From the NCBI GenBank assembly GCA_001972305.1, contig BDDD01001597.1:71856-135855 (forward strand): a DNA stretch of 64,000 bases, read 5' to 3'. The stretch is from Cephalotus follicularis (Eukaryota; Streptophyta; Magnoliopsida; Oxalidales; Cephalotaceae). Below are positions 10,538 to 45,428 of the stretch, in pieces. Both the position numbers and the translations under genes were made by a program. Under the pieces are notes generated by a model. The model ran no database searches. It was not told where the DNA came from and was given only the letters and a program-made list of their open reading frames with translations. Numbering within the stretch: position 1 is the first letter of the stretch; the number at the start of each line of letters is the position of its first letter.

Positions 10538-10753
10538 CAGTCGGATATTTTTCCATAACTGTCGGCTGGATCCTTGAGACAGTCGACTGTTCTTCCCCAA
10601 CAGTCGACTTGTTCATCTCGAGTAATCAGTAGTCGACTGTTTTGGGCAAAAGGCATGGACAATCGACTGTTCTTACATGACAGTCGGCTGGATGATCGAG
10701 TAGTCGACTGTTTTACTTAAACAGTCAGCTGTTCTGGGCTGGACAGTACCAGT
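10538..10753. repeat. Phased TCGA-palindrome array in LTR 'H' (10 units)
   Basis: Units start at 10538, 10559, 10580, 10601, 10630, 10660, 10681, 10701, 10722 and about 10744. Steps are 21, 21, 21, 29, 30, 21, 20, 21 and 22 bp. Units vary around CAGTCGACTG, for example CTGTCGGCTG and CAATCGACTG. The last unit is weak. Confidence 0.85.
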
Positions 10754-11504
10754 AATTCGCTTTTAAGTCCATTCAACAAGCAATTGGAATTTATCCACAC
10801 GTATTCAAACCCTAGTATATCACCAGTAGTCATATCCTGGTCTAAAACACAACTCAATTCATGCATTATTCTCCGTTTTCATTGTAAATTCAAATGAAAC
10901 CCAAACATGGTATTGGATGAAAACCAATCCAAAACTCCATCCAAAATTCAATGTGCATGTCAGCTTATTTATTAACAGTAACCACAACATTAATACAGAA
11001 ATCCACCGTTAAACAACTACACCTTTCATTTATAACATCATTACTCTTAAGCTCAAAATGCATGCATAGAATTCTCTACCATTTCCCCTACCTTTGATTC
11101 CAAGTTAGAAATCGGAAGTCCACCTCTTTGTGTCTCCTTTCCAGTATCTTTGAGCCTCCCAGCAGCTCCAAGAACAGTCCACAAGCTCCAATCCGAGCTC
11201 CAAGCTTGACAATGGAGAATCCTCTCAATTTCTCACTATCTTCTCTCTCAATTTCTCAATATTTTCACTCTCAATTTCTCTGGTTCTTTCTTATCAGGTT
11301 GCAGGGTGAAAGAGACGGAGGGAAGGGAACATTTATACAGACCTCTCTCCTTCAACCCGTTTGCATGGCACTAAGGGCCCTTCTCTCCCATTTTCACTTG
11401 CATGCACGCACACTTGTCACTCTTTCTCTTTCCTTCTGTCCTTGAAGGTCCTTGCATGGTTGTGCATGATCAACACGTCCTATTTCACGTGATGGCCTCT
11501 GAAG

Positions 11505-11509
11505 ATGCT
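11505..11509. repeat. Element 2 target-site duplication, left copy (ATGCT)
   Basis: Exact match to 21803-21807, flanking the TG...CA termini of element 2. Confidence 0.9.
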
Positions 11510-14257
11510 TGTAACACCCCCGAGCTGTGGGAGTCGCTACAGTTGCATATACCAAAACTTAACATAACTAAACATACTAGAAAAGCTCATCTTTATGAAA
11601 TACGTGATGGTTTAAAGCATATCCATAAACATACTGAAACTGATCATAAACTGAAACTTATTGATAATCCAAAAGTCATAACTGAAATTAACATATTGTT
11701 TATTAAACAGATCCACTATGACCACATAAACACAAAGGGATCAGCACCTAGATGATCGTCAGACATAAGGGAGTCACTCTCATCACACATTGCCCCGTAG
11801 CTCCTGATAACCTGCCGCATGGAAACGAAAACAAGGCTGAGCAAACCTCAGTACGAATATAGAATGTAAAACAGTAAACGATATTTTAAAGCAAGAAGAT
11901 TTCAAAAGTACTTTAAAGCAGAAATCTTAAGCAGTGAAATAGTTTAAACATACTCTATAAATGCCCACGGCAAAACATATAAACCAAGTTCATAACTTTG
12001 AAACATAAAGCATACCTTTCAAAAACATAGGTTCCATAACTGAGCACCCATAACATATCAGAAACACATAGTAGCAAGGGGTTCGCGACACCCACATTGC
12101 CAAATAGAATTGCAGTGTACGACGCTACACATAAAATTCCCATATCATAACATATCCCAAAACATATAACTAGGATCGATCCATACGCCTCTATCACAAA
12201 TCCTATCCTAGGATATCCCAAAGAGACGCCGTAAACTAATCACACTGTTACGGAATGTGTCATGTCCCCGTGCCAGGTCCACAACATGCCTATGGTACCC
12301 CCATAGGTGGTTATAAAAGCTCAGTATTTCACCATTTCAAAAACTTAATTTCATCAAATCAATTTAATCACGTAGAAAGGTTTCCCAAAACAAAATCATA
12401 AATCGTTCTCAAACGATATATTTTCACGTATACTTTCATAATCAAAATGCAACTCTTTTATTTTCACAATAAAGAGACATTTGCATAGCATTTCGTAAAC
12501 ATAATATAGCTGAATTCATTAAGCCAGAAAATATTCATTTCAATAAAATATCAACTGACTTTATTCCGAAGCATACGAAAAATATACTTTAACATGTTCA
12601 TAAAACTGAATTTATTTCAAATAATTCAGTTATCCAAAACTGATTTTATTCTCAAAACAGAACTGAATTTGTACTCTAATAAAATCAATAAGAGTGTATC
12701 AAGGAACGAAGATCCGTACCTTATGCGATCACAGACTAACTTACGAATATCCGGTAAACTTCATTTACCTCACGTAGCACAATAATCTATACAACATAAC
12801 AATTTTCAAATAAGGGTCTAAAATTCATTTGGGCATAAAACAGAATCATAATGATGTTTAAGATAAACCCGGATCATCGGAAGAGCAAACGGATGAAAAC
12901 AGAAAGTTGCAGGACAATCCAGCCAACTGTTTCAGCGATCCAGACGACTGTTCAAGGGGTTGCAGTAGACTACACAACAGGGCCAGTCGACTACTCAACC
13001 TGGACTGTAGGCAGTCGAATGAATCAGGGGTCCAGCCGACTACGCAACACAAAACAGTCGACTGTTCGCACAAGATAGCTGACTACACAAACTAAACAGC
13101 CGACTATTCATATGGGCAGTCCACTGCTCTGGGTGACAGAACAACAGTTTCGTGCAGTTTTGTACAATCTAGTTGCCAAAACTCGGATTTTTGAACACCA
13201 GAAGATTACCAACATGCAAAACAACTTTATATGGCATGTAAAACGATGTTATAACACTGAATTCGACAACGACCTATTGACAGAAAATTATTTAATGTGA
13301 CAGAAAAACTTAAACCATGACATACAATTGCATAGCTCCAATTCTGTCTGTTTATGATGATCACATGCATCAAAACCAGAATATATAACACTCCCTAGGT
13401 GTCTACAGATTGCCACAAATACAGGATTTATTTTTGATAGAAAAACAGGAAGGTAGAAATCAAAACTACTCCTTCTCTAGCAACTTATACATGGGAAAAC
13501 AATTCCTTGATAACACTAACACATAACCATCACAGTAGGGCAACGAACTAACCTGCAATGGCGACACAAATTGAAGAAGAACATAGATGTTCGACATAAT
13601 CAAAAGAGTGAAATACACACTCAAAGTTTTGACAGTGCCATGCAATATCAATGAAACAATTACCGAATTGAACCTTGATGAAACTAACCTTATCAATGGA
13701 GTATGTAAACACAGAAATCACAGCCCCAATTGCTCAGCAAATTCGGCAGTAGCAACACACAGAAAGAGATGGCCAATTGAATGGCATTATCTCACATATA
13801 TAGCAAACGAAACCAAAACGGGAAAGGATAGAAAGAAAAGGAAAAACCCATATGTTAGATATGGAATGTAGGCAGATTTTCAGGGTGAGAAGAAGGAAAG
13901 AGATAGAGTTATGCGGGAGAGAGAGATTGGAGAGAGAGATACGGGTGAGAGAGAGTTTGGGAGGGAGAAGGAAAGTAAATTAAGATAAAAGATTTTGTTT
14001 TAAAAACCAATTTTGAAAACATAATTAATAAAATAAATTTGTACATATAAGATTATAATTATGTATTTATGAATTGGTTTATAGTAATAATAATTTGACT
14101 AAATTTACCCAACAAAATGTCCATACTAACATACCCAGAACTAAGCTTGTATCAGTCAGCCGAAAAACATAAACCCAACGTAAAACATGCAATCACTTAA
14201 ACAAAACAGATAAAACCCGTAAGAAAAAAAATACGTACAGGTAATCAGGGTATTACA
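11510..14257 (-). repeat. Element 2 3' LTR (left)
   Basis: Plus-strand start TGTAACACCC and end TATTACA. It matches 19049-21802 closely along its length. On the minus strand it begins just after the polypurine tract. Confidence 0.95.
12920..13126. repeat. Phased TCGA-palindrome array, element 2 left LTR (10 units)
   Basis: Ten decayed units start at 12920, 12941, 12963, 12984, 13012, 13033, 13055, 13076, 13097 and 13117 (steps 21, 22, 21, 28, 21, 22, 21, 21, 20). Many carry substitutions relative to the right LTR, for example CAGCCAACTG at 12920 where the right copy has CAGTCGACTG. Most of these are C/T or A/G transitions at CpG-containing cores. Confidence 0.85.
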
Positions 14258-14272
14258 TCCACCCCCCCTAAA
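14258..14272 (-). promoter_or_regulatory. Polypurine tract of element 2
   Basis: TCCACCCCCCCTA on the plus strand reads as a G-rich polypurine tract on the minus strand. It directly abuts the 3' LTR and matches that of element 1. Confidence 0.85.
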
Positions 14273-14310
14273 AAGAAGATTTTGTCCTGAAATCTTAACA
14301 TACACATACC

Positions 14311-15859
14311 TTAGACGAACAAAAGAGGGTATCGTTCCCGAATGTGCTCCTCCATCTCCCAAGTAGCCTCACGTTCGGGATGGTTGCTCCATAACACCTT
14401 CACAAACGGAACGGTCTTGCTACGCGTAACCCGTTCCTGTAGATCCAGAATAGCCTCCGCCTCCTCCTCATAAGATAGATCCTCCTGAATGCCATCCAGA
14501 GGATAGTGGACCACGTGTAGGGGATGATACTGATAACCCCTCAAAAAGGACACATGGAACACATTATGAACATGAGATAACTGTGGAGGCAAAGCTAACT
14601 GATACGCAACTGCACCAACCCTCTCCAGAACTTCAAACGGTCCTATAAACCGAGGACTTAACTTTCCCTTCAGTTCAAACCGTCGGACGCCTTTCCAAGG
14701 TGAAACTTTTAAAAACACATCTTCACCTACTATGAACTCTAAGTCCTTCCGGTGTCTGTCCGTATGATTTTTCTGTCGAGATTGAGCTGCCTTCAGCCTC
14801 TCCCTTGCTATAGCCACTTTCTCAGTAGTGATTCGTACTAGCTCTGGCACCTCGATAACTCTTTCTCCGACTTCATCCCAGCATGTTGGAGCTCGACAGT
14901 TCCTCCCATAAAGAGCTTCAAACGGAGCCATACCAATACTAGCATGCCAACTGTTATTGCAGGCGAACTCCACTACGCTCAGATACTCGTCCCAGCTCCC
15001 AGTCCAGTCCAAAGCACAAGACCTCAACATATCTTCTAAGGTCTGAATTGTCCTCTCTGTCTGCCCATCTGTCTGTGGATGGAAAGCTGTACTAAAATTT
15101 AGCCTCGTACCCCAAGCTTTCTGAAACCCCTTCCAAAACCGTGAAGTGAAACGGGGATCCCTATCCGAAACAATAGATACAGGAGTCCCATGCAGTCTCA
15201 CAATCTCCCACTGGAAAACCTCCGCCAAGCGGTCCACTAAAAAGTCCTCTCGGATTGCCAAGAAGTGAGCTGATTTAGTCATCCGATCCACCACAACCCA
15301 AATAGCATCGTTTCTCCTGTAAGTTCTTGGCAAGCCAGTAACAAAATCCATCGTAATACTCTCCCATTTCCATACCTGAACTTCCAAGGGCTGTAACAAA
15401 CCACTGGCACGCTGGTGTTCGATCTTAACCTGCTGACAGATCAAACACCTCCCAACATACTCTACTATATCCCTCTTCATTCCATTCCACCAGAAATTAT
15501 CCTTTACGTCTCTGTACATTTTTGTAGAACCGGGATGTATAGAGAACGGAGAGCTATGCTCTTCAGACAAGACATCATTTCTGATAGAAGCATCTGCCGA
15601 AACACACAACCGATTACCCAACCAGATCACTCCATGCTCATCCATACGGAACTCTGACTGTTTACCCTTTTCAACATTCTGAACTAGGGCCCAAATCTCA
15701 CCGTCATCACGCTGAGCTGCCTTAATTCGAGATATAAGGGTAGGCTCCATACACATGCCAGCCATATATCCATCTGAACCCCAAACAAACAGATTCAAAT
15801 CCAATCACTCCATATCTGCTATGAAATGCGACTGAGTAACCAAAGCCCCCACACTCCCA
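14311..15859 (-). pseudogene. Element 2 integrase with chromodomain-like C-terminus
   Basis: The best-preserved integrase in the window: 497 codons are open from 15804 to 14311. The zinc module H83-H90-C120-C123 is complete. The catalytic triad is D153 ('TMDFVTG'), D214 ('IVSDRD') and E250 ('DGQTE'), with 35 residues between D214 and E250 as in canonical integrases. A DNA-binding C-terminus follows, then a chromodomain-like tail (about 430-497) ending ATWEMEEH...YPLLFV. A single TGA just upstream (15805-15807) separates it from RNase H. On its own it would not be released correctly, because the rest of the polyprotein is broken. Confidence 0.9.
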
Positions 15860-17286
15860 GAACTTTTCCTACTCAGAGCATCAGCTACCACGTTTTCTTT
15901 ACCAGGGTGGTACTGAATATTCAGATCGTAATCCTTCAAAAACTCTAACCAACGCCTCTGTCGCATATTCAACTCCTTTTGCATGAAGATGTACTTGAGA
16001 CTCTTATGATCGGTAAAGACGTCACAAGTTTCTCCATAAAAGTAGTGCCTCCAAATCTTTAATGCAAACACAACTGCCGCCAATCTCGAGATCATGTGTA
16101 GGGTAATTCAATTCATAAGGCTTCAACTGTCTCGAAGCATATGCTATCACATGACCATGCTGCATCAGAACACAACCCAAACCCTTTTTAGAAGCATCAC
16201 TATAAATCCAGTATCCTCCTGACCCAGATGGTAAACGAAGAATCGGTGCAGACACAAGACCGTTCTTCAGTTTCTCGAAGCTTGCCTCCCGCTCATCATT
16301 CCACACAAACTTTGCTCCCTTTCTCATAAGCTGAGTCAGTGGGAAGGCTATGGAGGAAAAGCATTCCACGAACCGCCTATAGTAACAAGCTAAACCCAAA
16401 AAGTTCCTAACCTCCGATACTGTAGTAGGCCTCGGCCATTTAGTAATAGCTTCAACCTTAGTAGGATCCATAGTAATCCCTTCCGCTTAACCACATGGCC
16501 TAAAAACGCCACCTGTTCCAACCAGAAGTCACATTTCGAGAACTTTGCGTATAGCTGATTCTTCCTCAGAATACCAAGCACTATACGAAGTTGATCTTCA
16601 TGTTCTTCCTTCGATTTCGAATACACAAGGATATCGTCGGTGACCACAATCACAAACCGATCCAGAAACTCATGAAAAACCCGATTCATTAGGTCCATGA
16701 AAACTGCTGGTGCATTCGTAAGTCCAAACGGCATCACCAGAAATTCATAATGCCCATACCGCGTACGGAAAGCGGTCTTAGGCCCATCTTCATCTTTTAT
16801 CCGCAACTGATGATATCCAGACCTCAAATAGATCTTAGAAAAATACCGTGCACCTTGGAGTTGATCAAATAGGTCATCAATCCTAGGCAAAGGGTATTTA
16901 TTATGAATAGTGATCCGATTTAGTTCTCTGTAGTCAATACACAGTCTCATAGATCCGTCCTTCTTCTTCACAAACAAAACCGGAGCTCCCCACGGCGAAA
17001 CACTCGGCCAGTTAAAACCCCGATCTAACAACTCTTGCAACTGCTCTTTCAGCTCTTGCAACTCAAGCGGTGCCATCCTATAAGGTGCTTTAGATATAGG
17101 TGCCGCCCCAGGAATGAGTTCAATGGTAAACTCCACTTCCCGTTGCAGTGGTAAACCCGGTAACTCCTCCGAAAACACATCAGAAAACTCTCTAACCACA
17201 GGATAATCTTCAAGGCGAGGCTCAACCTTTGAGACATCCTTCACAACAACTAGAAACCCTTCGGCGCCCTTAGCTACTAACTTCTA
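15860..17286 (-). pseudogene. Element 2 reverse transcriptase-RNase H, frameshifted
   Basis: Runs from a TAG at 17284-17286 through '[10 protein letters not shown]', '[12 protein letters not shown]', '[11 protein letters not shown]' and 'PFGLTNAP'. The catalytic Asp pair is kept in 'VTDDILVYS', although the usual FIDD has changed. A frameshift near 16485 moves the frame to 16471-16022, and another near 16090 moves it to 16095-15805. RNase H motifs are 'YSDASKKG' and 'FTDHKSL'. The downstream linker reads '[10 protein letters not shown]', which is lost in element 1. Two frameshifts and one stop make it non-functional. Confidence 0.9.
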
Positions 17287-17789
17287 AGCTTTCATAACAG
17301 ATATAATCTTAACATCTTTTATAGGCTGTGAACCTTGATAAATAAAATCAGGTCGATCCACTTCTCCGAACAGAATCCTCCGGGCATGACAATCAATCGT
17401 AGCCCGATGGCTCTCCAACCAATTCATTCCCAGAATTATATCGAAATCATACATATCAAGAGGAAGAAGATCCGCATCACGAACCCGATCATGAAAAACA
17501 ATAGGACAAGCATAAAAACACTCAGATATCACAACAGATGTCCCCATAGGGGTAGAAAGAACCAAAGCTGGATCAAACAACTGCGAAGGTATTCCTAGAT
17601 GCCGAACAAAAGATCTCGCTACAACCGAGTGCGTTGATCCAGTATCATATAACACATAAGCTCTACGATTACCAACAGGAATAAAACCCGAAACCGTACC
17701 TGGAGCATTAGCTGCCTGATGAGTCGTAATTGCAATGACTCGGCCTCCCACGTTGCGTTGCCCAGCATTCGCACAATTACCCTTCCTTA
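17287..17789 (-). pseudogene. Element 2 aspartic protease region
   Basis: The active-site motif DTGST follows 'RAYVLY'. 'IILGMNWLESH' marks the distal part of the domain. The frame is continuous here, but a frameshift near 17790 disconnects it from gag, and a TAG at 17284-17286 separates it from RT. Confidence 0.85.
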
Positions 17790-18879
17790 GCACGAGGAGC
17801 CTGACAATCCTTCGCGAAGTGTCCCATCTGTCCACACACAAAACAGGCCCCACTGACTTTATAACAGGTACCGACTGGATGATACCTACCACAAGTATCA
17901 CATTTAGTAATCTCAATATTGGGGTTACCCCCACCAGCTCTCTGTGTATTCTTCTGATCATTTCCTTGCTGACGTTGTTGATCACCATCTTTACTCTTCT
18001 TGTGATCTCTCTTACATTGTTTACCTCCTCTGCCTCTGTTCCATGAACTGCCTTGACCTTTGCTCTGCTTTCCAGAATCTTATTCACTCCTATATCGCCT
18101 TTTATCCCTTTCCTGACGTGCTGCCTGGAAATCCAATCTCTCCAACTAAATGTTTTTCGCCGCATTTGCAACTTCAGCTACATCCGCAAACTTTGAGTTT
18201 ATCAGCTTTCCCCTTAACTGGTAATGTAACTTCCACTTGAACTTTTCAGCTTGCTCCGATGCTGACCCCGTCGCGGATCCAGCAAACCCAGCCAATCTGG
18301 TGAAACGGGCCAAGAACTCCGAAACTGTTTCTCCATCCCTCTGCCTGGTATTAACAAATTCCCTAGCATAGGCCTCCTTATCAGCAGTGGGAAAATACTA
18401 CTGATGGAAGACTTCTCGGAACTCAGACCATAACAGATCATCAGCATAACCTCCACCCTTAGCCAAATTCAGAGTATTCCACCATTTCTGAGTGTCTCCT
18501 TCAAGTTTGTAAGCCGCTAACCTTACCTTCTACTGATCATCACACCTTAAAATACTAAAGATCTTCTCCATGTGTGCCATCCAGTGTTCAGCTTCCACGT
18601 GTGTCACAGCCGAACTAAAGGACTGCGGCCTCTGTTTCTGAAACCGCTCAAGCCAAACATGAGTAGGTGTGCCAAGCCTATCCCCAGTTTCCATATCCCT
18701 CTGAACTTCCACCGGAGCATTCTCCTCAACAACTTGTTTCCGATTCTGTTGTTGCATTACATGATTCACCTCCTGAGCAACTGCCTGACGAAGCAACTCT
18801 TCCACAGAAGGCAGTTTCTGTCTTCATTTTGTGCCCCAGCTGGTGTAGTTCTCTGAGGAGTGTTTCTTGTACGTACCAT
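17790..18879 (-). pseudogene. gag: Element 2 gag, frameshifted
   Basis: The start codon is at 18877-18879 (M-V-R-T-R-N), equivalent to the element 1 gag start. A frameshift follows about 20 codons later near 18823. The next stretch, 18805-18530, holds 'MEELLRQAVAQEV' and 'PQSFSSAVTHVEAEHWMAHMEKIF', as in element 1. Further stops and shifts occur near 18530, 18400 and 18150. The Cys/His boxes (CDTCGRYHPVGTC, then CFVCG) can be read near 17800-17900 in a different frame from the protease. The copy would yield no full Gag. Confidence 0.85.
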
Positions 18880-19048
18880 CTACGAAGGAAACCGAAACCC
18901 GAGATATCAAACCGAAACACAAAAATCAAAACAGAAAACATATCAGAAAGGCCATAACAGAACAGTCCTAACCCAATTCTACCCAATCTCATAGGTCAAA
19001 CCTAGTTAGGTCTTCTAAGGAACAAATCCTATTCTCTGATACCATAAC
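18880..19048 (-). other. Element 2 leader with PBS
   Basis: Short leader between gag and the 5' LTR. The PBS complement CTCTGATACCA is at 19034-19044, matching initiator tRNA-Met, four bases from the LTR start at 19049. Confidence 0.8.
19034..19044 (-). promoter_or_regulatory. Primer-binding site of element 2 (initiator tRNA-Met)
   Basis: The minus strand reads TGGTATCAGAG immediately downstream of the 5' LTR. Confidence 0.9.
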
Positions 19049-21802
19049 TGTAACACCCCCGAGCTGTGGGAGTCGCTACAGGTGCATATACAAAAACTTA
19101 ACATAACTAAACATACTAGAAAAGCTCATCTTTATTAAATACGTGATGGTTTAAAGCATATCCATAAACATACTGAAACTGATCATAAACTGAAACTTAT
19201 TCGTAATCCAAAAGTCATAACTGAAATTAACATATTGTTTATTAAACAGATCCACTATGACCACATAAACACAAAGGGATCAGCACCTAGATGATCCTCA
19301 GACATAAGAGAGTCACTCTCATCACACATTGCCTCGTCGCTCCTGATAACCTGTCGCATGGAAACAAAAACGCGGCTGAGCAAACCTAAGTACGAATATA
19401 GAATGTAAAACAGTAAACGATATTTTAAAGCAAGAAGATTTGAAAAGTACTTTAAAGCTGAAATCTTAAGCAGTAAAATAGTTTAAACACACTTTATAAA
19501 TGCCCACGGCAAAACATATAAACCAAGTTCATAACTTTGAAACATAAAGCATACCTTTCCAAAACATAGGTTCCATAACTGAGCACCAAAACCTATAACA
19601 TATCAGAAACACATAGTAGCAAGGGGTTCGCGATACCCACATTGCCAAATAGAATTGCAGTGTACGGCACTACACATACAATTCCAATATCATAACATAT
19701 CCCAAAACATATAACTAGGATCGATCCATACGCCTCTATCACAAATCCTATCCAAGGATATCACAGAGAGACGTCGTAAACTAATCACACCGTTAAGGAA
19801 AGCTTCATGCCCCCGTGCCAGGCCCACAGCATGCCTATGGTACCCCCATAGGTGGTGATAAAGGCTCAGTAATTCACCATTTCAAAAACTTGATTTCATC
19901 AAATCAATTTAATCACGTAGAAAGGTTTCCCAAAACATAATCATAAATCGTTCTCAAATGATATATTTTCATATATACTTTCATAATCAAAATGCAACTC
20001 TTTTATTTTCACAATAAAGAGACAGTTGCATAGCATTTCATAAACATAACACAGCTGAATTCATTAAGCCATAAAATATTCATTTCAATAAAATATTAAC
20101 TGACTTTAGTCCGAAGCATACGAAAAATATACTTTAACATGTTCATAAAACTGAATTTATTTCAAATAATTCAGATATCCAAAACTGATTTTATTCTCAA
20201 AACAGAACTGAATTTGTACTCTAATAAAATTAGTAAGAGTGTATCAAGGAACGAAGATCCGTACCTTATGCGATCACAGACTAACTTACGAATATCCGGT
20301 AAACTTAATTTGCCTCACGTAGCACAATAATCTATACAACATCACAATGTTCAAATAAGGGTCTAAAATTCATTTGGGCATAAAACAAAATCATAATGAT
20401 GTTTAAGATAGACCCGGATCATCGGAAGAGCAAACGGATGAAAAGAGAAAGTTGCAGGACAATCCAGTCGACTGTTTCAGGGATCCAGTCGACTGTTCAA
20501 GGGGTGGCAGTTGACTACACAATAGGGTCAGTCGACTACTCAACCTGGCTGCAGGCAGTCGACTGAATCAGGGGTCCAGCCGACTATGCAACACAAAACA
20601 GTCGACTATTCCCACAAGACAGCCGACTATACAAACTAAACAGCTGACTGTTCATATGGGCAGTCAACTGATCTTGGTGACAGAACAGCAGTTTAGTGCA
20701 GTTTTGTGCAATCTAGTTGCCAAAACTCGGATTTTTCAACACCAGAAGATTACCAACATGCAAAACAACTTTATATGGCATGTAAAATGATGTTATAACA
20801 CTGAATTCGACAACGACCTATTGACAGAAAATTATTTAATGTGACAGAAAAACTTAAACCATGACATACAATTGCATAGCTCCAATTCTGTCTGTTTATG
20901 ATGATCACATGCATCAAAACCAGAATATATAACACTCCCTAGGTGTCTACAGATTGCCACAAACACAGGATTTATTTTTGACAAAAAAACAGTAAGGTAG
21001 AAATCAAAACTACTCATTCTCTAGCAACTTATACGTGGCAAAACAATTCCTTGATAACACTAACACATAACCATCACAGTAGGGCAACAAACTAACCTGC
21101 AATGGAGACACAAATTGAAGAAGAACATAGCTGTTCGACAGAATCAAAAGAGAGAAATACAGACTCAAAGTTTTGACAGTGCCATGCAATATCAATGAAA
21201 CAATTATCGAATTGAACCTTGATGAAACTAACCTTATCAATGGAGTATGTAAACACAGAAATCATAGCCCCAATTGCTCAGCAAATTCGGCAGTAGCAAC
21301 ACACAGAAAGAGATGTCCAATTCAATGGCATTATCTCACATATATAGCAAAAGAAACCAAAACAAGAAAGGATAGAACGAAAAGGAAAAACCAATCTGTT
21401 AGATAAGGAATGTAGGCAGATTTTCAGCGTGAGAAGAAGGAAAGAGATAGAGTTGTACGGGAGAGGGAGATTGGAGAGAGAGATACGGGTGAGAGAGAGT
21501 TTGGGAGGGAGAAGGAAAGTAAATTAAGATAAAAGATTTTGTTTTAAAAACCAAATTTGAAAACATAATTAATAACATCAATTTGTAAATATAAGATTAT
21601 AATTATGTATTTATGAATTGGTTTATAGTAATAATAATGTGACTAAATTTGCCCAACAAAATGTCTATACTAACATACCCAGAACTAAGGCGGGTATCAG
21701 TCAGCCCAAAAACAGAAACCCAATGTAAAACATACAATCACTTAAACGAAACAGATAAAACCCGTAAGAACAAAAATACGTACATGTAATCAGGGTATTA
21801 CA
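19049..21802 (-). repeat. Element 2 5' LTR (right)
   Basis: Starts TGTAACACCC and ends TATTACA on the plus strand, followed by TSD copy ATGCT. It is about 2.75 kb, close to the left LTR. On the minus strand a TATA-like AT-rich region near 21590-21610 precedes a pyrimidine-rich leader (plus-strand A/G tract 21420-21535). This suggests a promoter near the outer end and a long transcribed R/U5. Confidence 0.95.
20465..20670. repeat. Phased TCGA-palindrome array, element 2 right LTR (10 units)
   Basis: Units start at 20465, 20486, 20508, 20529, 20556, 20577, 20599, 20620, 20641 and 20661 (steps 21, 22, 21, 27, 21, 22, 21, 21, 20). They form a block of four, a longer gap, then a block of six. This copy keeps more intact CAGTCGACTG cores than the left LTR. 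Confidence 0.9.
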
Positions 21803-22179
21803 ATGCTCTTCCCATGTCAGTTTGCATCTGATTTCGCCATTTGTCACAAAAACAGAGCATGAACCAGTCGGCTGTCCTTCCCTGGCAGTCGGCTGTTCAC
21901 CTAGAAGCCTGTTGCCAAGTGTCACAACAGTTGGCCAGTAGGGTGGTTACTCATGCTAGTGGATTGCCCCACACCTCAGCCTAACAGTCGGCTGGTATAT
22001 CGCACCAGTCGGCTGTCCAAGCCAAAATTCCCATAATTATACTTAGAATCACACTTCTAAATGTTCTAAGCCAATTGAAATTCAAGATATCAACCAGGAA
22101 ATTCACCTTTTATTAATTCAAGATAAAAACTACATCGAGGATTACAATAATACATGAAATCAAATTTTCGGGCGTTACA
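21803..22179 (-). mobile_element. Right segment of host LTR 'H'
   Basis: Begins with the right TSD copy of element 2 (ATGCT) and ends GGGCGTTACA. On the minus strand this reads as an LTR start, TGTAACGCCCGAAAATTTG. A second, sparser set of palindromes lies at 21865-22015 (CAGTCGGCTG at 21865, 21886, 21985 and 22006). The following bases (22180 on) match copia LTR sequence, so H apparently inserted into the copia LTR. Confidence 0.6.
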
Positions 22180-22210: not shown

Positions 22211-24415
22211 TGTAACGTCCCCGACCCGAGCCCGCTAATAGGTCAAAGCGAACTTCGAGGATCGGTTGCATTACGTGGGAGTGAACCGTTACATCCTTTG
22301 TCACTCTTCTCTAAAAGTACATTACATCATAAACTCATGTCTTGCAAGATAATACATAATCTTAAATTCAAACTTTACACATAATCATCTTATATAAAGA
22401 TGTCATAACCATATCGTTGGTATACATTTACACAGGATCATCCTTTATCATAACATATATTACAGTGGAAAACATTATCTTATTACATGTCAAAAGCATT
22501 CTTACGCACACAATGTCGCATAGTACATTTCCTTCGCAAAGTTTCTTCTTAAGAGCTCCCTTTAAGCTCCATTCAATCATTTCCTGAAAACATTTTATTT
22601 GAAAACAAACATTGAAAGAAATGAGCTCAAAATAGCTCAGTAAGCTGTTTTTACCGTAAACACATTTCATCGTAACCTTTTTCTAGTCAATACATATAAC
22701 TAGAACATTTCATAAAACATATCACTTTTCTAGTTACAAATTCGTAACTAGAACATTTCATAAACGTGAACGTCATAAAAACCTTAATGAACCCTTTTAC
22801 ACCGCTTCACCGGGGCTTTGTACACTCCCCGACTACTATCCTTACACCACATGCATGTCCGCGAGCACTTTACGCTCCATTAACATCGAGCATCTCGCTC
22901 CATTCCCCTTGGTTCACAATGCAAGGGTGGTTCATTCATCATTTCATAAAACATTTCCTCAATAATTTGAGTGATCAGCTCAAAGCATTCATAAAAATCA
23001 TTTCATAACATTTCTTTCACAATTCATAAAGTTTTGTCTTCATTTGAGTAATAAACTCAAATGCATTCATAAAACAGTTTTGCATAGCTTTACTAAAACT
23101 GATTATTCATATAGAAATAAGCATTTTCAGATAAAACTTATAACTTAAACATTAAATTAGACATCTTCACGAATTTAGAAAGCTCGAGATCATAACAATT
23201 GGTTGATAATTGAATCCGTTATGAATTTTTGAAAGTGGCTGGTTCCATATGAATACGGGGCATGAGCAGTAAAATGAAACATTGATTCTCATCAAGAATT
23301 TGATAGCATTTCGAGAAACATAAAACATAACAGTTAAAGAGGACATATTAAGGTTTTCAAAACATCCTACCATTTAATTTTTCGTCAAGAAACGAGCAAG
23401 ATGTGATTCAAATAATTTGATGCATAATCCAGGAATGAAATAGTACCCAAACAACAATTTAAAACATGGCTTTTCGTCAAGAAATCAATAGAATCTTGAA
23501 ACGTGCAAAGCATAAAAGTTGAAGAGGACATCCTAAAGTTTCCCTAACATTCAACTATTCAAATATTGATCAATAATTGAGAAAGATAGGAATAAAACAA
23601 TCTACTGCATAATTTGGAAGTAAAACAGAGGAAACTTTGGTGAAAATGGGTATAGGATTTACTTACTTTGCTTTAGAATTTCTTTCGCTCTTTGCTTTGC
23701 CGAAATCTCCACTTATTCCCGGTAGAAAGCACTTCCTATCCTCAGCCAAAATGACTAAATTGAGCCCTCATTGCCATTAAATAGAATGGTTACTTGGGAG
23801 GCAAGTCTTCTCCCTCTCTCACATGACTCAAGTCTCTCTCTTAGTAGCCCATGTGCTCAAAATCAGCCAATCCAAGTGATGACACTTGTTAGATCATCTG
23901 ATAACATCTCAAATCATTTATCCCGGGCTGCCACGTGTCCAAAATTAAAGATTTTTACTCACAAAATGACAAAAATTCAGATTTTGAAATTTGTCTGTAG
24001 CTCAAAGTGTCGACGCTTTCTCCCTAAGCGTCGCCGGTCACAGGCTTGTCCTGAGGTCTCCAACTTCTATCCTGACTAAAGCGCTGACACTTTTCGACAA
24101 AGCATCACCACTTTAAGTCTCTTCCAGGTCCACTTCAGTACTTGATTTCAAAGCGTCGAAGCTTACATTTACAGCGTCGTCGGTTGCCCCAAGCGTCGTC
24201 GCTTTTAGTAAAACTGTCGGCGCTTTAGACATCTTTGTTAACTCTTAACCTTTGAGATTGATAGCGAGACCCCCTGTCTGATTACCGGGGAGCGGAACCC
24301 TCGAACCCCATGAGCGTAGGGTCATACTATGGATCCTTTGAAATATTTGCCAATATACACAATAGAAATCATGTTTCCATAATTAATATCTTTACTGGAA
24401 ATTTGGGTCATTACA
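22211..24415 (-). repeat. Element 3 3' LTR (left)
   Basis: Starts TGTAACGTCC and ends GTCATTACA on the plus strand. It is about 100 bp shorter than the right LTR because it lacks a GC-rich stretch equivalent to about 31671-31770. Confidence 0.95.
24006..24224. repeat. Phased TCGA-palindrome array, element 3 left LTR (8 units)
   Basis: Twelve-bp units around AGCGTCGACGCT start at 24006, 24027, 24080, 24101, 24152, 24173, 24192 and 24213. Steps are 21, 53, 21, 51, 21, 19 and 21 bp, so units come in pairs one 21-bp step apart. The spacing is the same in the right LTR. Confidence 0.85.
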
Positions 24416-24435
24416 ATCTACCCTCCTTAAAAAAA
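24416..24435 (-). promoter_or_regulatory. Polypurine tract of element 3
   Basis: ATCTACCCTCCTTAAAAAAA on the plus strand gives a purine-rich tract on the minus strand directly next to the 3' LTR. Confidence 0.75.
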
Positions 24436-24453
24436 ATTTGTGCTCAAAATTAG

Positions 24454-31633: not shown

Positions 31634-31722
31634 TTAGACATCTTTGTTAACTCTTAACCTTTGGGATTGACGCTTTCAACAAGACATTCATCCAAAAAAA
31701 ATAACCAATTTCAATTTTCTTC

Positions 31723-31763
31723 CTGGGGTGCTGCCCCAGCGCCCCTGCCCGTTGTCCGGGCAG
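31723..31763. other. Two adjacent GC-rich perfect hairpins in element 3 5' LTR
   Basis: CTGGGG-TGCTG-CCCCAG at 31723-31739 and CTGCCCG-TTGTC-CGGGCAG at 31745-31763 are perfect inverted repeats with 5-base loops. They fall in the roughly 100-bp segment absent from the left LTR. Confidence 0.8.
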
Positions 31764-31919
31764 TGGGACCCCCCGTCTGCCCACCGGGGAGCGGAACCCC
31801 CGAACCCCCCGAGCGTAGGGTCATACTACGGGTCCCTTGAAATATTTGCCAATTTACACAATACAAATCATTTTTCCATCATTAATATCTTTAATGGAAA
31901 TTTGGGTCATTACAATATT

Positions 31920-38844: not shown

Positions 38845-39016
38845 AGCATCGATACCTTATCCTAAGCATCGACGGTTACCAGCTAAGCATCGACGCTAAC
38901 GTCGACGCTTTATGTAACCAGCTGCGCGTTAGATAAAGCATCATTTCCCAAACCACTAAGCTTTGACGCTCAACGCAAAGCGCCAACACTCAAGGTTTTC
39001 TTTCAGCGCTTAACGC
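38845..39016. repeat. Phased TCGA-palindrome array in copia leader, part 1
   Basis: Units around AGCATCGACGCT or AGCGC... start at 38845, 38865, 38886, 38917, 38937, 38959, 38979 and 39005, with an overlapping AACGTCGACGCT at 38898. Most steps are 20-22 bp. The array continues after the solo LTR. Confidence 0.7.
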
Positions 39017-39147
39017 ATACCGTTTGTGATGACCCGAATTTCCATTACATATATTAATTTATGGAAAGATGATTTCTATTGTGTGATTGGCAAATATTTC
39101 AAGGGACCCGTAGTATGACCCTACGCTCAGGGGGAAATTCTGGCTTA

Positions 39148-39368
39148 AGCACCGACGGTTCCAGGTAAAGAGTCGACGCTTTGGAGGCAACCGACGACTC
39201 TCCAAATGCAAACATCGACGATTTGAAGTCAAGTGTGTCAGTTGACCTGGCGGAGACTTAAAGTGACAACGCTTTGTAGGAAAGCGTAAGCGCTTTAGTC
39301 GGGATAGAAGTTGTAGACCTCGGTATAAGGCCGTGACCGGCGATGCTGACGGATAAAGAGTCGATGCT
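39148..39368. repeat. Phased TCGA-palindrome array in element 3-family solo LTR
   Basis: Units start near 39148, 39169, 39190, 39212, 39262, 39283, about 39336 and 39357. They are the mirror order of the element 3 array, with the same roughly 21-bp pairs and roughly 50-bp gaps. The sequences have diverged (AGAGTCGACGCT, AGTGACAACGCT), but the spacing is kept. Confidence 0.75.
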
Positions 39369-39599
39369 TTGCCCTGTGTCAGGTGCAGAATTCTAGCTTT
39401 TTATCCCGTTTCGGAGGAATTAAATGGATCGAGGGACACGTGTCAAGAAAGTGATGTAAGACTTATGTTTTTATTCTGGAAAGGGGTAGGTGGCATTATT
39501 GGATTTGATGGAATTCCATCACATGGGCTGCTAAGGAGGCAAGCTCACATGGGTGAGGTCATGGATGACACCATGCAAGCTTGGCCTCCAAGTTTGCCT

Positions 39600-39615
39600 C
39601 TCCTATATATGTATG
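39600..39615 (+). promoter_or_regulatory. TATA box of the solo LTR
   Basis: CCTATATATGTATG about 575 bp into the LTR, followed by A/G-rich sequence (39655-39710). It is about 240 bp downstream of the palindrome array. The position suits an RNA polymerase II core promoter. Confidence 0.45.
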
Positions 39616-41645
39616 TCCAATTTCAGCTAATGAAGGGTTGCTTTTCTGCTGATATTAGAGAGGAGGATGCTAGGGAGAGAAGAAGGGAAGGAGATCAAGT
39701 GAGGTAAGGAAATTCTATACCCATTTTATCAAAGTTATTCCTTTGTTTTACTTCAAAATTATGCAGCAGATAGTTTTATTGATATCCTGCTCATTTCATG
39801 ATGAAATTTCAAATGGTTGAATGTTTTGAAAACCTTAAGATGTATAATTTAACTGTTATGTTTTATGCATCTTGAAATTCTGTTGAATTGTTGATGAAAA
39901 GCCATGTTTTCGTCTACTGCTCAGGTGCTGTTTTCAAAGGGAAACTGCAACTTTAAAAATTCATTGCAGCTTCGTTTCTCAATGGAATTTTATGATTTTT
40001 ATCTCTATGGATTCATTCAGATGTCTACTTTAACTTTTATGTTTTACATTTTTCAGGAAAGAGTTTATTTCTATATGAAATTTCTATTTTAGAAAAGTTA
40101 TGCAAAGCTGTTTTATAATGGTTTTTGAGTTAATTTCTCAAAGTGATGAGAAATGTTTTACGAATGCATTTGAGTTAAGCACTCAAATGAAATGAAGGTT
40201 TCTACATGAGAAACCAGTTTTAGAAATTTTTTACGATGATATTTTATTAATGCTTTGAGCTGATCACTCAAGGTATTAAGAAAGAATTATGAAATGGTTT
40301 TATGAATGCATTTGAGTTAATTACTCAAATGAAGAGAAATGTGTTATGAATGCTTTGAGCTGGTCACTCAAAGTATTAGGAAATGTTTTATGAAATATTT
40401 TATGAATTGAATGAACAACTACTGGATTGCGATCCACTGAGGATTAATCTCGTAAAGATTAATGAATGAACCAAAGGAAAGAATCCAAGATGGATTAATG
40501 TTAATGGAGTGTAAAGTGCTCACGAGCATGCATGTGATGTAAGGAAAGTAATCGGGGAGTGCACAATGCCCCAGTGAAGTGGTGTGAAAGGGTTCATTAA
40601 AGGTTCGCGACCATTAAGTTTTATGAAATGTTCTGTTTCAGGAGATATGAACAGAAAAAGTGTTTTAAAGATGTTTTGTTTATGAATGTGAAGAAAATGA
40701 TTTTACTTGATGTTTTCAAGTATGGCTGTGATACAAGCCAAAAGAAAGTATGATTGGAAAACGTTTTTGATTGTTTTCAAGTATGTCGGTGTTATACACC
40801 AGGAAATGCATGATTTTAGAAATGTTTCGATTTTATGAAAGTTATCCAAAAAAAAACGGATTTCGATAGTGCAATGTTCTAGTTTTATAAAACTAGAAGA
40901 AGATTTTCAACAATGTTTTGAAATGTATGAGCTGGAAACGTTTTGATAAAGATTATCAAAAATAACGGGTTTCGATAATGGTTTATGACAATGTTTCTTA
41001 CGGGGATCTTTAAAGCTCAATCCTTTTAATGTCTTGTTTTCAAACAAACCTTCCAGGAAATGTTGAACGTGAAGTTGCGAGCTGTAGAGGAAGTTCACAA
41101 AAGAAGCGTAAGGAAAGGAAGTATGATATGCTATGCAGTTATGTTTTAATGTCATGTGTTAATGTTTTCTGCTGTGTAATGTTTTATGATAGATGCTGTA
41201 TATATGTGAATGTATAGAAACAAATGCTATAGATTATGATGTTTTTATGTAAGATGATGATATCAAAAGTTATTGAACATACTTGAGAGTATGAGAAGTT
41301 AATGATAAATGTGAGTGTATGATTGTTTTATGATAAGTTTATGTTTTTCCGCTGTGAAAGGTTACATGTTAAGTGATGTACAAGTGCAAAGGTATTAGAA
41401 ATGATCATGATAATGAGAATATAACATTTTGAAATTGGTGTTCAAAAGATGTAAGCATTTGTGATCCTGTGAAGTTATTGAGTAATAATGTTAGGTTTTA
41501 AATCTAAGTCAAGATTAAAAGATATGAAATGGATCATTAAATGGTTAAACGATTTGATGGTCAAAGGTCACACCCACGTAACGCACCGATCTTCAGAGCT
41601 CGCTTTGAGCTTAAAGTGGACTCGGGTCGGGGGCGCTACACCGTT

Positions 41646-41734
41646 AGTGCTTAGCAGCAATCCATCAGCGCTTACGACTAACCTCTAGTGCTTAACCTGT
41701 AACTGTCGACGGTTTATGCGAAACCGTCGACGGT
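41646..41734. repeat. Phased TCGA-palindrome array in copia leader, part 2
   Basis: Units start at 41646, 41667, 41687, 41702 and 41723. When the solo LTR and one TSD copy are removed, 41646 follows the 39005 unit by 20 bp, so one continuous array was split by the insertion. ACCGTCGACGGT at 41723 is a perfect 12-bp palindrome. Confidence 0.8.
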
Positions 41735-41826: not shown

Positions 41827-41828
41827 AT

Positions 41829-44238
41829 TGTAAGAACAAAAACGAGTATATAGTTGTTTTAGGCGTTAAGTGCATAGGATGTATAACTTTAATTTTCATT
41901 AAAGCGGCTCTATAACAAAAACATCCCATAAACTAACTCCATAAACAAATACAAACAACCTAGGATCGCTAATCAACAGCCCAGATAAAAAATATAATCA
42001 AACATAGAAGGATAGAGATTATACCAAGCAACCAACTCCTTCCTTCAAGTTTCCGTTCTTCGACTTGAAGCTTTTACTCAGGAACGAACAGCAGCGGAAT
42101 AACCAATGTAAAACAATTCCTATATATCTAATCCTAATCTGGGATTAATACAGGGAATGTAATACTCAATGAAAGTACTACACCACCTTTAATAATCAAG
42201 TAGTGGTGTTTAAAGACAATGGTATGTGACTTTCTCTTTTCTCCCTTTTGTTTTGTTCTACACTAAGAACCAAAACCAATTCAATTCTCTCATTTCAAAA
42301 ATCGTTTTTTCACCGATGTAACAAGTCTTCACACATGAAAAACCTATTCTCACTTTTCTCTTTATGCACTCTAGCATTAAGAGTCATGATCCATTCAAAT
42401 ATGGATCACATTAAAGCCATCACTCAATAAAAGTTATGAATGGATTTCATTCCTATAATGAGAATCCCTTTCCTTTTATTGGTGTCATGTCTAACAAGTT
42501 TCCATACCATGAAAACGTGTTCTTGCATGACATGAGGCTTTCCGAGTTTGCTGTTGCATGACACACGTACTGCCATATTGGTTATCTAATAACCATAACA
42601 AGTTAATGTTATATATGGCAGCCAATGATGTGATCTCTCTTCTCTATATGCTATTCAAGCATCAAAAGATATGATCCACCAAATGTGGATCATCATCATG
42701 TCTAAAAAATAATGAAAACATGTCAAAGGGATCTCATTCCTTGAATAGAGATCTTGTTTCCTTTCTTTGGTGCCATGATTCATGTGTTACCATATCCATA
42801 TGGTTTTACCAAGTTGCAGTTGCTTGACATACAAAATGTCTAAGCATAGAAGACGCGTTGTGATCATTTCCTTTAAGAAGAAAACATGTTATGTCAAATA
42901 AAGGTTGTCTAACAACCAAAAACACGTTGCTCTTCATGCAACCAATGAGAAGAGAAAGCTTAGCATGCAAACAACCAATGCATGAGAGAGATTGAGAGAT
43001 AAAATAATAATCCAATTGTTATTTAATACCAAAATCATATTAGTATGTTCCGTCAACTAATTAGTCACGTAACTTCACTAATACACCACAATATATAACA
43101 TGTGCCATACACATTATAAAACAATACGATATATGTATCTGAGACATATACTCATGAGGCGGGACCCGAAAGTCCGGAATTAATCGGTAACGATGGTGTG
43201 TTACTAAGACACCTAGCTCTTAAGTAAAATTACCATAAATAGTCCTTGAGTACTTTTAAGACCCGGAACATGTGACTATCACATTCCAGACGTGTAAATT
43301 AATCCCCTGATTAATTTCCACAATTAAGTCCGTTTTCGATACATCCGATACTTTATCCCGATGACAGTTACCGTGTACTATAATCCCTCGTCATCCACGG
43401 CTCCGATCACGGCCTAGGGTAAGGATACGTGTCAACCCTAGATATGCCTGTATCTGTAATCCGTATTTTACCATCATGACTATCGACAAGCCTTTCCGAA
43501 AACCCTAGGTTCCAGCTCGCCGTAACCTGGCCAGGTATTTCAAAGTCCATAATGTAGACAGATACTATAGAGCCAATCACCCTTACATCGGGTGTGACGA
43601 TCCCATGTTGCGCAATCACTTACATTTCCATAAATCCTGCAGGACCCAAAAACTACCTGTTTACAAATCCCACAAAAAAACTGGGTAGGGCATAAATCAA
43701 AGTCAGACAATTTCTATGTAATGCACAGTAGCCGCTCAGGTCTAAGGATCAGACAAGTCCATCAAGAACTTGCTAAACTTGTAGAGTCTATACACTACTG
43801 CCCCAGATGGGAATCTCTACCGACACGGGATATGTGACCATCCAAGTAGAATTCCCATGGAGGGTCATGTTCTGTGTTCATGCTCCAAGCACGCACCCCA
43901 CATTAGCTTAAGGGTTCAACCCAAGTGGCAATGAGATACTCCACCCTCCCATTCGCGAGAGCAAGCACAATATGGCAAGTCTGTCCGCTTCACAAATGCC
44001 CTAAATAAGTGAACCTATGACTTGGAACAGTTTAGTCACAGGGAATAAGGAAGTCGCTCTCATAGCCCTAGGCTCGACAACCAACCCTTTGATGTGACAG
44101 GGCACCATATATGTAAGTTGTGTCATGCTTCAATTATGTGATAAAACTTACCAATAATTAAATACAATTTGCACAGTGTAACAGAGTATGAGTACATCCA
44201 ACCACCTATTGGCTTGATGGGTCACACTCTCTCTAACA
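41829..44238 (-). repeat. Copia 5' LTR (right)
   Basis: The minus strand starts TGTTAGAGAGTGTGACC at 44238 and ends GTTCTTACA at 41829, next to the PBS. It is about 2.4 kb. Its start matches the fragment beside the PPT at 31920-31989. It is noncoding, with two hairpin modules near 42390 and 42670. The flank from 44239 belongs to another LTR, so the copia element probably inserted there. Confidence 0.85.
42385..42785. repeat. Hairpin module, copies c and d, in copia LTR
   Basis: GATCCATTCAAATATGGATC at about 42390 and GATCCACCAAATGTGGATC at about 42671. Each is followed by the same 'GGGATCTCATTCC...GAGATCTTGTTTCC' type stretch seen in the leader copies a and b. Confidence 0.7.
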
Positions 44239-45428
44239 AATTGTACATAAAACAGGACAAAAATGTTGACTGTCCAGTCTTAAGCGTCGACCGTTTCTCT
44301 TAAGCGTCTACAGTTCCTCTCAAAGCGTCGACAGTTTATGTTAAGCATCGTCGGTTCCCTCACTTAGGCATCGACAATTTCTATTTAAAGCATTCGACAA
44401 TTTTTCCTTAGGCGTCACCAATTTTCTCTTAAGCGTCGACGGTCCCCTATTAAGAGTCAACGGTTTCTATTGTTCTTGCGATTCAAAGTAAATAGAGCAC
44501 GTAATTTCTTATTTCAATTCAATCAACCATCAACATAGAATCATATCTAAACCATCTGAACCCAATATGCATACCATATCATCATAAACATGTCATAAAT
44601 CCCCCCTCAAAACGCTATCCCATAATCAATTTGGATTGATTCTTCTCTTTACCCTCCAACTCCTTCAATTCAACTTAACGTTCAATAATTCCCAGAATTC
44701 AAGCCAGGTTGCGTTTAACATCTGATACAGAACGAAAATAAGTATATGTATATAACTAATTAACTATAATAACAACAACTTAACTCAAATCAAAAGCTTA
44801 CCAATTCAGTTTAAGCTTCAATTTCAACTTGAACTCCAATTTCAACATGCAACTTATTATATTACATAGATTCCTCTTTCTTCAATGCTTCCAACTTTAT
44901 TCTCTACCCACTCTAACATCTAATATAAAGGGATAGGGATTTTCCTTCAGTGATCCCTCAATTCTTCTAACTCACAATTTCAATATTTTCTCCCCTCTCT
45001 CTCACTCCACTATCTTACTGTTTTCTTTCAGTTTTGCAGATGACAAACATTTAAAACACTTATTCATCCTTTAGCTGGCAACTGGTGCCATGTTTGGCAT
45101 TGTTTGACATGTTTCCATAACACCCGTCCAGTTTAAAATCCATTCATGCCATTTCTCTATTCCAATCGACACGTATCACATACCTGTCTAGGCTTAAAGC
45201 ATCGACGGTTTTAGCCTTGGCATCGTCGGTTTGGTGCCAGATTTCTGTTCTTTAAGTTCTTTCAAATAACTTCCCATTTAACTAAATTTAGTCATAATAC
45301 CATACAATTAAGCCCTTAATAACAACCATTAGCTTGATCAATGGGCAACTAAGCATTAATTCAAACCAATGTATAATTTATTAATCGTTTATACAATATA
45401 CATTAAATTTGAATTTGCGGTTATTACA
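44239..45428 (-). repeat. Element 4 3' LTR (partial)
   Basis: Ends GGTTATTACA at 45428, directly beside a PPT. The left part is cut off by the copia LTR. The LTR holds a nine-unit palindrome array and a further pair at 45198 and 45219. A TATA-like minus-strand stretch lies near 44925. Confidence 0.75.
44284..44465. repeat. Phased TCGA-palindrome array, element 4 LTR (9 units)
   Basis: Units resembling AGCGTCGACGGT start at 44284, 44304, 44325, 44345, 44367, 44390, 44411, 44433 and 44454. Steps are 20, 21, 20, 22, 23, 21, 22 and 21 bp, an unbroken run. A separate pair (45198, 45219) is also 21 bp apart. Confidence 0.9.

Follow-up and report, generated by a model that had tools for sequence, protein, structure and literature searches.

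Regularly spaced GTCGAC-centered dyad arrays in Ty3 and Ty1 retrotransposons of Cephalotus follicularis

Sireviruses carry repeated-motif (RM) boxes, which are palindromic, present in multiple copies and located mostly in the upper half of the long terminal repeat (LTR) upstream of the TATA box, and whose motif differs from element to element with a core shared in most (PMC2829016). These boxes have been called Sirevirus-specific, absent from classic retrotransposons and marked by a CGG-CCG core, and the parts of the account used here suspect a regulatory role and name no factor (PMC2829016). Here we describe arrays of GTCGAC-centered dyads with a dominant 21-bp step in a 64,000-nt stretch of Cephalotus follicularis DNA, called the window throughout (C1597:71856-135855), which is part of a plant genome of 1,577,397,061 bases in 9,746 contigs. 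The window consists of nested LTR retrotransposons, among which elements 1, 2 and 3 have both LTRs and target duplications, together with a solo LTR of the element 3 family, a partial element 4, a Ty1/copia element, an inferred LTR designated H and an Athila-like element. The arrays occur in six element lineages of the window and in one further piece (Table 1), and the arm bases outside the core set three classes of site: A (CAGTCGACTG), B (AAAGCGTCGACGCTTT) and C (AAAGACRTCGACGTCTTT).

A first-pass annotation of this DNA had held that no described system has such an arrangement, a view that is revised here, as RM boxes are the nearest described system (PMC2829016). Indeed, the Vitis RM motif CGGTCGACCG contains GTCGAC, as the present arrays do, and the Tnd-1 motif ACAATCGATTGT in the table of that source is TCGA-centered without the CGG-CCG signature (PMC2829016). 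The sites described here are likewise palindromic repeated motifs, though many single sites are imperfect, and the RM-box figure of at least eight copies is reached by elements 1, 2, 3 and 4, H, the solo LTR and a Sirevirus-like copia element of contig C1 (8-13 listed sites per LTR), but not by the window copia leader (six listed) or the Athila-like array (four). The arrays differ from RM boxes in having Ty3 elements and another copia as hosts, in their dominant 21-bp step and in classes that are shared between superfamilies; neither a spacing rule nor class exclusivity is given for RM boxes in the parts of that source used here (PMC2829016). The core is TCGA rather than CGG-CCG. The RM-box position in the upper LTR half upstream of a TATA box is seen in the solo LTR and the C1 copia, whereas the arrays of elements 1 and 2 lie at about position 1150 of 2750 with no clear TATA box, and that of the window copia lies in its leader. 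Multiple polypurine tracts (PPTs), AT/TG attachment and a large gag with a CCHC knuckle, which define Sirevirus hosts, were found together only at C1:102703-107182, and the window arrays are mainly in Ty3 elements.

Nearest in logic are the VANDALs of Arabidopsis, which are Mutator-like DNA transposons, with their VANC proteins. Dense noncoding motif arrays that differ between related families occur there as they do here, and the VANDAL repeats expand, contract and change together (PMC5735166, PMC10398659). A mark of VANC anti-silencing is that motif copies lose methylation upon expression of the factor. As far as the parts of these accounts used here go, the VANC21 motif YAGTATTAY is non-palindromic, has a single orientation and has an element-encoded binder, unlike the dyads of the window (PMC5735166, PMC10398659). 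The subterminal repeats of CACTA (En/Spm) elements comprise many direct and inverted copies of 12-20 bp motifs that are family-specific and, in En/Spm, bound by TNPA; these are, however, DNA transposons whose self-encoded protein has roles in excision, and the parts of the sources used here mention no shared TCGA dyad (PMC2613891, PMC8978399). No earlier report of such arrays in Ty3 elements was found, by title or start of abstract, among the records listed from a literature collection that omits most subscription papers, and the extension to Ty3 elements, the class exclusivity and the class switching described below look new.

The arrays are real and are a feature of the whole genome. A search for three GTCGAC separated by gaps of 13-17 bp (equivalent to 19-23 bp steps) gave 45,110 triples in 1.58 Gb, compared with 9 for CTCGAG, which has the same composition and is also TCGA-centered, 166 for CAGCTG, which is GTCGAC reversed, and 887 for GAGCTC, which is CTCGAG reversed; these are counts of overlapping matches, to which a single array can contribute several. 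Outside the window, a 250-kb sample that was unused in motif definition (200 kb of contig C1 and 50 kb of contig C300) contains 174 GTCGAC occurrences; they form 53 pairs at 19-23 bp, whereas the background at lags of 200-699 predicts 0.26. The next of the 64 palindromic hexamers in this sample were ATATAT (26 pairs vs 2.8) and TATATA (25 vs 2.5), and GACGTC gave 4 pairs vs 0.19. GTCGAC triples numbered 15 at 19-23 bp and 0 at each of 14-18, 24-28, 29-33, 34-38 and 40-44 bp.

Chains detected by position matrices lead to the same picture, with 24 class A and 24 class B loci, partly overlapping, in the 200 kb of C1, and 2 class A and 13 class B loci in the 50 kb of C300. When the step was changed to 16, 25 and 31 bp, the positions over threshold fell in C1 from 761 to 23, 115 and 187 for class A and from 296 to 18, 55 and 77 for class B, and in C300 from 59 to 3, 16 and 16 for class A and from 197 to 44, 58 and 57 for class B. 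Within the window, GTCGAC-like sites that end a chain of at least three number 19; 200 shuffles of 500-bp blocks gave 0.025 on average and never more than 1. Chain length alone is not distinctive, because other palindromic hexamers and shuffles also attain chains of 3-4. In a chain-of-four matrix scan, 14 array regions (best scores 26.5-77.4) outscored all 60 shuffles, whose highest values were 21.6 (class A) and 17.3 (class B); the Athila-like array did not attain this level. Thus, by shuffles, other step sizes and matched motifs alike, the excess over matched sequence that the first-pass annotation required of the arrays holds, and its proposal that one architecture with differing flanks is common to Ty3 and Ty1 elements is borne out far above chance genome-wide. 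The assignment of arrays to LTR elements draws on the window and a few assigned cases in C1.

The arrays of the window lie in the places that had first been noted, namely in elements 1, 2 and H (CAGTCGACTG), in element 3 and the solo LTR (AAGCGTCGACGCTT), in element 4, whose motif in the sense direction is AACCGTCGACGCTT-like, in the copia leader and in the Athila-like element. Three were added to that listing: a second array of H, a pair near the start of the element 4 LTR and a decayed class B array. What had been described as 21-bp palindromes are dyads of 10-18 bp, many of them imperfect, and 21 bp is the step between them. The copia leader array is present as a single array that is split by the solo LTR, and the Athila-like array, also present, has only four sites in two units of ~51 bp. 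By hand count, 30 of the 32 exact GTCGAC in the window fall within arrays, and of the 55 steps between neighbors among 63 hand-listed sites of eight arrays, 32 measure exactly 21 bp and 44 fall within 19-23 bp. RM boxes form CpG islands; in the present arrays, the ratio of observed to expected CpG is 1.3-1.8 in class B arrays vs 0.6-0.8 in the rest of those LTRs or in the copia LTR, and is 0.5-1.0 in class A arrays. The element 1 array opens with a separate inverted repeat, CTGTTCTG...CAGAACAG (1370-1395). Helical phasing finer than the 21-bp step was considered and rejected: a periodogram has a peak at 10.3 bp, but steps of 27-30, 99 and 183 bp fit it poorly and lags elsewhere are 21k and 21k+7. 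In C1:1-200000, the lags between exact GTCGAC cluster at 21k and 21k+7 (28, 49, 70, 91 and 112), as if one fixed 28-bp joint were present.

The two arms of a site almost always belong to one class. The half-sites of class A (consensus CAGTCGACTG, 31 sites) hold 8.29 and 8.31 bits of information, and those of class B, which reads AAAGCG-CGACGCTTT in element 3 and the solo LTR, hold 6.9 and 8.36 bits (16 sites). C1 and C300 contain 124 exact GTCGAC that have a partner, of which 75 are A/A, 40 are B/B, four are hybrid and five have an unclassed arm, so that the arm classes agree at 115 of the 119 sites with both arms classed, a tally that is tempered by the breadth of the class B arm set, which takes in class C arms as well. 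Another count over the same 250 kb gave 61 A/A dyads, 15 B/B dyads and three hybrids (of the form CAGTCGACGC), along with 23 A-A neighbors. Whole arrays are similarly pure. A 3:1 purity rule was passed by 45 of 47 arrays defined blind to class (30 from C1, 8 from C300 and 9 from the window, which is also the source of the matrices). In the 30 arrays of C1, sites of the minority class number 5 of 189, whereas 5,000 permutations gave 52.9 on average and never fewer than 40, a contrast that is softened by the inclusion of LTR pairs and hence of non-independent arrays. Genome-wide, GCGTCGACGC stands beside itself 3,529 times (B-B neighbors; reversed control, 4), whereas CAGTCGACTG stands beside GCGTCGACGC (A-B neighbors) once on both strands together.

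Matrices built from one element were also used to detect the arrays of others. The site lists behind them were hand-picked by phase, with degenerate sites included and off-phase rows excluded, and some were shortened (the element 4 list, El4b, has 10 sites in cross-detection and 7 in chain scans). The element-1-only matrix, at a threshold of two false matches per 64 kb, has 40 matches, all of them in the arrays of element 1, element 2 and H. The matrix from element 3 and the solo LTR has six matches in element 4 and seven across both halves of the copia leader, with one further match in an element 2 array and three outside the listed arrays, two of which revealed the decayed array at 52.4 kb. 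Conversely, the element 4 matrix detects element 3 and the solo LTR, with seven matches outside and three in class A arrays. The separate motif type that had first been given to element 4 is therefore abandoned, as the two matrices detect each other's arrays. The copia-only matrix detects element 3, the solo LTR, element 4 and two Athila-like sites, with four matches outside, and this cross-detection shows a single motif to be common to the copia leader and the Ty3 elements. Class B is thus common to Ty3 elements and a Ty1/copia leader.

Class C is also common to a Ty3-like and a Ty1 element. The C1 copia has the Sirevirus hallmarks, taken as given in the parts of PMC2829016 used here, of AT/TG attachment after AAAGGGGGAG, further PPT-like tracts upstream and a copia-type gag with a CCHC knuckle. 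Ten sites of the form AAAGACRTCGACGTCTTT are listed for its array, which spans LTR offsets 162-553; TATA-like boxes follow downstream at 656 and 1012. A matrix of these ten sites has five matches in the 64-kb window, namely the four Athila-like sites and one other, and the four make the class common to both elements.

We think it reasonably probable that the arrays act as cis-regulatory operators and that the elements use them to recruit homodimeric factors, which likely belong to a small host family or are supplied in trans. Each site, a CG-centered dyad, would be bound by one homodimer, and a step of roughly two helical turns would seat several dimers on one face of the DNA, where they could act together. 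The matched arms, the pure arrays and this step point to homodimers side by side. At least two factor specificities (A, B and probably C) would depend on the bases that flank the common TCGA core in the arms; the array of each element would be tuned to one of them, and both superfamilies would draw on the same few. The sharing of classes between superfamilies favors host proteins, in all likelihood from one small family, or else proteins supplied in trans, and the elements may recruit them for transcription or for resistance to silencing. We infer the protein binding, the dimeric state, the host origin of the factors and the effect on expression from sequence patterns. Should the factors prove to be host proteins, many retrotransposon families would depend on a few common handles, with a bearing on the control of much of the genome in plants. 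Two-site probes, one per class and each with the other class as its control, could serve as direct baits for a candidate binder, and tens of thousands of genomic matches exist.

GTCGAC fits RYCGAC, the core for barley CBF proteins. Judged by that consensus, many sites do keep a CBF/DREB core, but it is not on at least one strand at every site, as GGCGAC and GACGAC (several class B sites), GTCAGC and GTAGAC stand in phased positions. A CBF-binding domain in U3 of Rider exemplifies the stress-response motifs of plant LTRs and is a host factor site within an LTR, and the parts of that account used here mention no phased dyad array (PMC6762207).

Several observations weigh against operator arrays for homodimers. 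Among five intact LTR elements in C1:1-200000, two have arrays and three have none. The array is upstream of a TATA-like box in the solo LTR and the C1 copia but probably downstream of the promoter in elements 1 and 2 (offset ~1150) and in the copia leader; with such variable placement around the promoter, the arrays do not keep the location expected of a simple enhancer. Steps of 27-30 bp do not equal whole helical turns. Within class A, the arms pair as expected from the columns and vary independently, so that arm agreement reflects a difference between classes and not compensatory change within one. The arm symmetry of El4b is poor, and the classes overlap somewhat, since H1 and one element 2 array also outscore every one of the 60 shuffles under the class B matrix. 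Among class A sites of the window, each GTCGGC variant is sense-directed and none is GCCGAC (with H read as +), a directionality that a strictly symmetric dimer does not need. These variants are located at 1393-1413, 10561, 10683, 20579-20622 and 21867-22008.

Beyond single arrays, we advance more tentatively, as an idea that falls a little short of probable, a shared cis-code in which two or three mutually exclusive specificities for homodimeric sites extend, in phased arrays, across the Ty1 and Ty3 elements of one genome, with a class that can be rewritten in place at all sites. If true, such a code would let elements join or leave a limited set of shared channels, for regulation or against silencing, that a small family of dimeric factors operates.

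The comparison of sites with spacers bears on selection. Between elements 1 and 2, sites are identical at 75 of 87 positions and spacers at 36 of 76 (P 9e-8); between H and element 2, the values are 71 of 100 and 44 of 117; and between the element 3 5′ LTR and the solo LTR, with the element 3 site set, they are 105 of 126 and 147 of 238 (P 1e-5). With the solo site set, the excess at sites is weaker (P 0.017 for the 5′ LTR and 0.11 for the 3′ LTR). No such difference exists between the two LTRs of element 1 (sites 81 of 87, spacers 75 of 78) or of element 2 (98 of 110 and 113 of 124), and this contrast serves as the control for P values that are optimistic, in that the sites help to place the alignment and were chosen by motif likeness. 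As the excess is found between families and is absent between the LTRs of one copy, the sites appear to be kept in active lineages and to drift after insertion, and they thus seem to be under selection while a lineage is active.

These data also speak to a neutral minisatellite, in which a 21-bp palindrome unit would be tandemly duplicated, the arrays would be relics and purity would come from duplication and gene conversion rather than from binding. Tandem duplication clearly contributes, as the Athila-like sites form two units of ~51 bp; some spacers of element 2 and H are also mutually similar, and array length varies between relatives. Nevertheless, spacers are mostly unrelated between arrays while the sites stay similar, the site-identity excess between families is gone between the two LTRs of one copy, and the arms agree in class, and we regard this explanation as unlikely.

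Across flank groups, spacers are alike in 6 of 120 A-A pairs, 11 of 91 B-B pairs and 2 of 224 A-B pairs, with H1 and H2, element 3 and the solo LTR, and the copia halves entered separately. Because such likeness is rare, the arrays are not one moved segment, and the single transfer of a homologous segment that would have overturned the initial proposal did not emerge. Clustering by flanks placed 51 of 67 loci in one group, and a stricter version gave 29 groups, two of which mix classes A and B; in the larger of these, most inspected links are due to nested insertions or neighboring elements.

To the convergence or exchange first considered, one case adds a third route, in which two arrays descend from one ancestral array and the class has changed where it stood. 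The element 4 LTR, of class B, aligns with a class A array at C1:49679-49944 (278 columns, 66%). When the alignment is widened, with 211 of 350 aligned bases identical, four sites correspond one to one and the spacers are related, whereas the arm bases differ; this direct alignment is a single pair, in which the C1:49.6 kb partner is counted as a related stretch rather than as an LTR. In addition, two LTR-like starts, at C1:67.2 and 73.9 kb, share 78-79% identity over 76 columns with that of the element 4 LTR and bear class A sites at a similar offset. The alignment of a B array with a related A array shows that class can change in place within a lineage, and such changes supply natural pairs for tests of site-protein co-evolution.

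In-place switching resembles the motif change of VANDALs and so is relevant to a VANC-type anti-silencing system, wherein some element would encode a dimeric factor and motif and protein would co-evolve. In VANDAL families, noncoding tandem motifs differ between related families and each matches its own VANC, according to the parts of these accounts used here (PMC5735166, PMC10398659). Element 1, however, has ~180 bases from its primer-binding site (PBS) to gag and ~55 from its last open frame to the 3′ LTR, and one class is common to Ty1 and Ty3 elements. No VANC-like gene was noticed among the listed and scanned open frames of elements 1 to 3. Element 3 has, between PBS and gag, a 91-residue open frame (29150-29425, - strand) that looks coiled-coil-like by eye and that has neither a Pfam match nor a homologue by protein search. 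We consider an element-encoded factor rather unlikely; if this were the case, it would be a new anti-silencing family.

Another alternative to operator DNA is that the arrays act in the transcript, as hairpins that form a packaging or dimerization signal or a small-RNA template. The arrays of elements 1 and 2 do fold much more stably than their shuffles (z -9.2 and -5.5), and Sirevirus palindromes are reported, in the parts of the sources used here, as small-RNA hot spots in maize (PMC5311732, PMC10760457). El4b, however, folds no better than its dinucleotide shuffles (z -0.6), and shuffling the spacers around fixed sites left the energy unchanged in all but one of six arrays (z -0.7 to 1.0), the exception being element 1 (-2.2). 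RNA folding is for these reasons not the common denominator, and a role at the RNA level seems quite improbable.

A further idea is that arrays are landing sites for the integration of other elements. The C1 Sirevirus-like copia sits within a class A array, where its target duplication AGCTG overlaps a site, and the solo LTR is inserted in the copia leader array. Yet insertion points with at least three sites within 300 bp on one side number 5 of 12, vs a background of 22% (P 0.11), and we judge this explanation very improbable.

Table 1. Arrays and host elements. Positions are those of the window, except where contig C1 is named.
Feature	Position	Strand	Remarks
Class A array, 8 sites, element 1 5′ LTR	1393..1553	+	LTR offset ~1164-1324
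Class A array, 8 sites, element 1 3′ LTR	8525..8685	+	
H1, class A array, 9 sites, LTR H	10540..10729	+	strand inferred
Class A array, 10 sites, element 2 3′ LTR	12922..13124	-	
Class A array, 10 sites, element 2 5′ LTR	20467..20668	-	offset ~1135-1336
H2, second class A array of H	21867..22013	+	two CAGTCGGCTG pairs 21 bp apart
Class B array, 8 sites, element 3 3′ LTR	24009..24221	-	offset ~195-407
Class B array, element 3 5′ LTR	31418..31630	-	
Class B, copia leader, inner half	38848..38906	-	sites 38848, 38868, 38889, 38901
Class B array, 8 sites, solo LTR	39151..39365	+	
Class B, copia leader, PBS-proximal half	41705..41731	-	sites 41705, 41726
Class B array, 10 sites, element 4	44265..44461	-	offset ~968-1164
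Class B pair near element 4 LTR start	45201..45226	-	offset ~203-228; register of second site approximate
Decayed class B array	52388..52546	.	first four sites 52388, 52409, 52430, 52451
Class C array, 4 sites, beside Athila-like element	60577..60652	-	steps 20, 31, 19
Element 1, Ty3 chromovirus-like	230..10078	+	LTRs 230-2971, 7362-10078; pair 95.6% identical
Element 2, Ty3 chromovirus-like	11510..21802	-	LTRs 11510-14257, 19049-21802; pair 94.9%
Element 3, Ty3	22211..31914	-	LTRs 22211-24415, 29610-31914; pair 92%
Solo LTR, element 3 family	39025..41640	+	target duplication CCGTT both sides; within copia leader array
Ty1/copia 5′ LTR	41838..44238	-	PBS at 41826
Element 4 (Ty3), partial 3′ LTR	44239..45428	-	PPT and TGTAATAACCG start; cut by copia element
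Sirevirus-like copia	C1:102703-107182		2.2 kb interior, only gag-like frames seen

Element 1 has TG..CA ends, a target duplication with one mismatch (CATGC/CATGA), the PBS TGGTATCAGAG, and gag and Tf2-like SH3 domains. Element 2 (target duplication AGCAT) encodes reverse transcriptase (RT) and integrase, and element 3 (AATAT) encodes protease, RT and integrase. All three have a chromodomain match (23.7, 22.3 and 17.1 bits for elements 1, 2 and 3) below the Pfam cut-off of 25.1. The labels chromovirus and Athila-like are provisional. RT protein matches have 48-72% identity among the 120 matches listed of 8,000, from many plants, and gag gave four matches at 43-55% identity. A search of viral contigs found no relative; one match there was an in-frame repeat within a coding frame and is unrelated.

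The solo LTR is 67-90% identical, piecewise, to the LTRs of element 3. LTR H is disrupted by elements 1 and 2, and its + strand is a predicted one. The Athila-like LTR looks truncated, and a chromovirus-like pol fragment (60797-62589, - strand) adjoins that element. The window copia has no array inside its 5′ LTR and has a gag_pre-integrs domain at 33293-33592. Its two LTR starts (44183-44239 and 31925-31981) are 95% identical, and its 3′ LTR is interrupted after ~60 bases by H and element 3.

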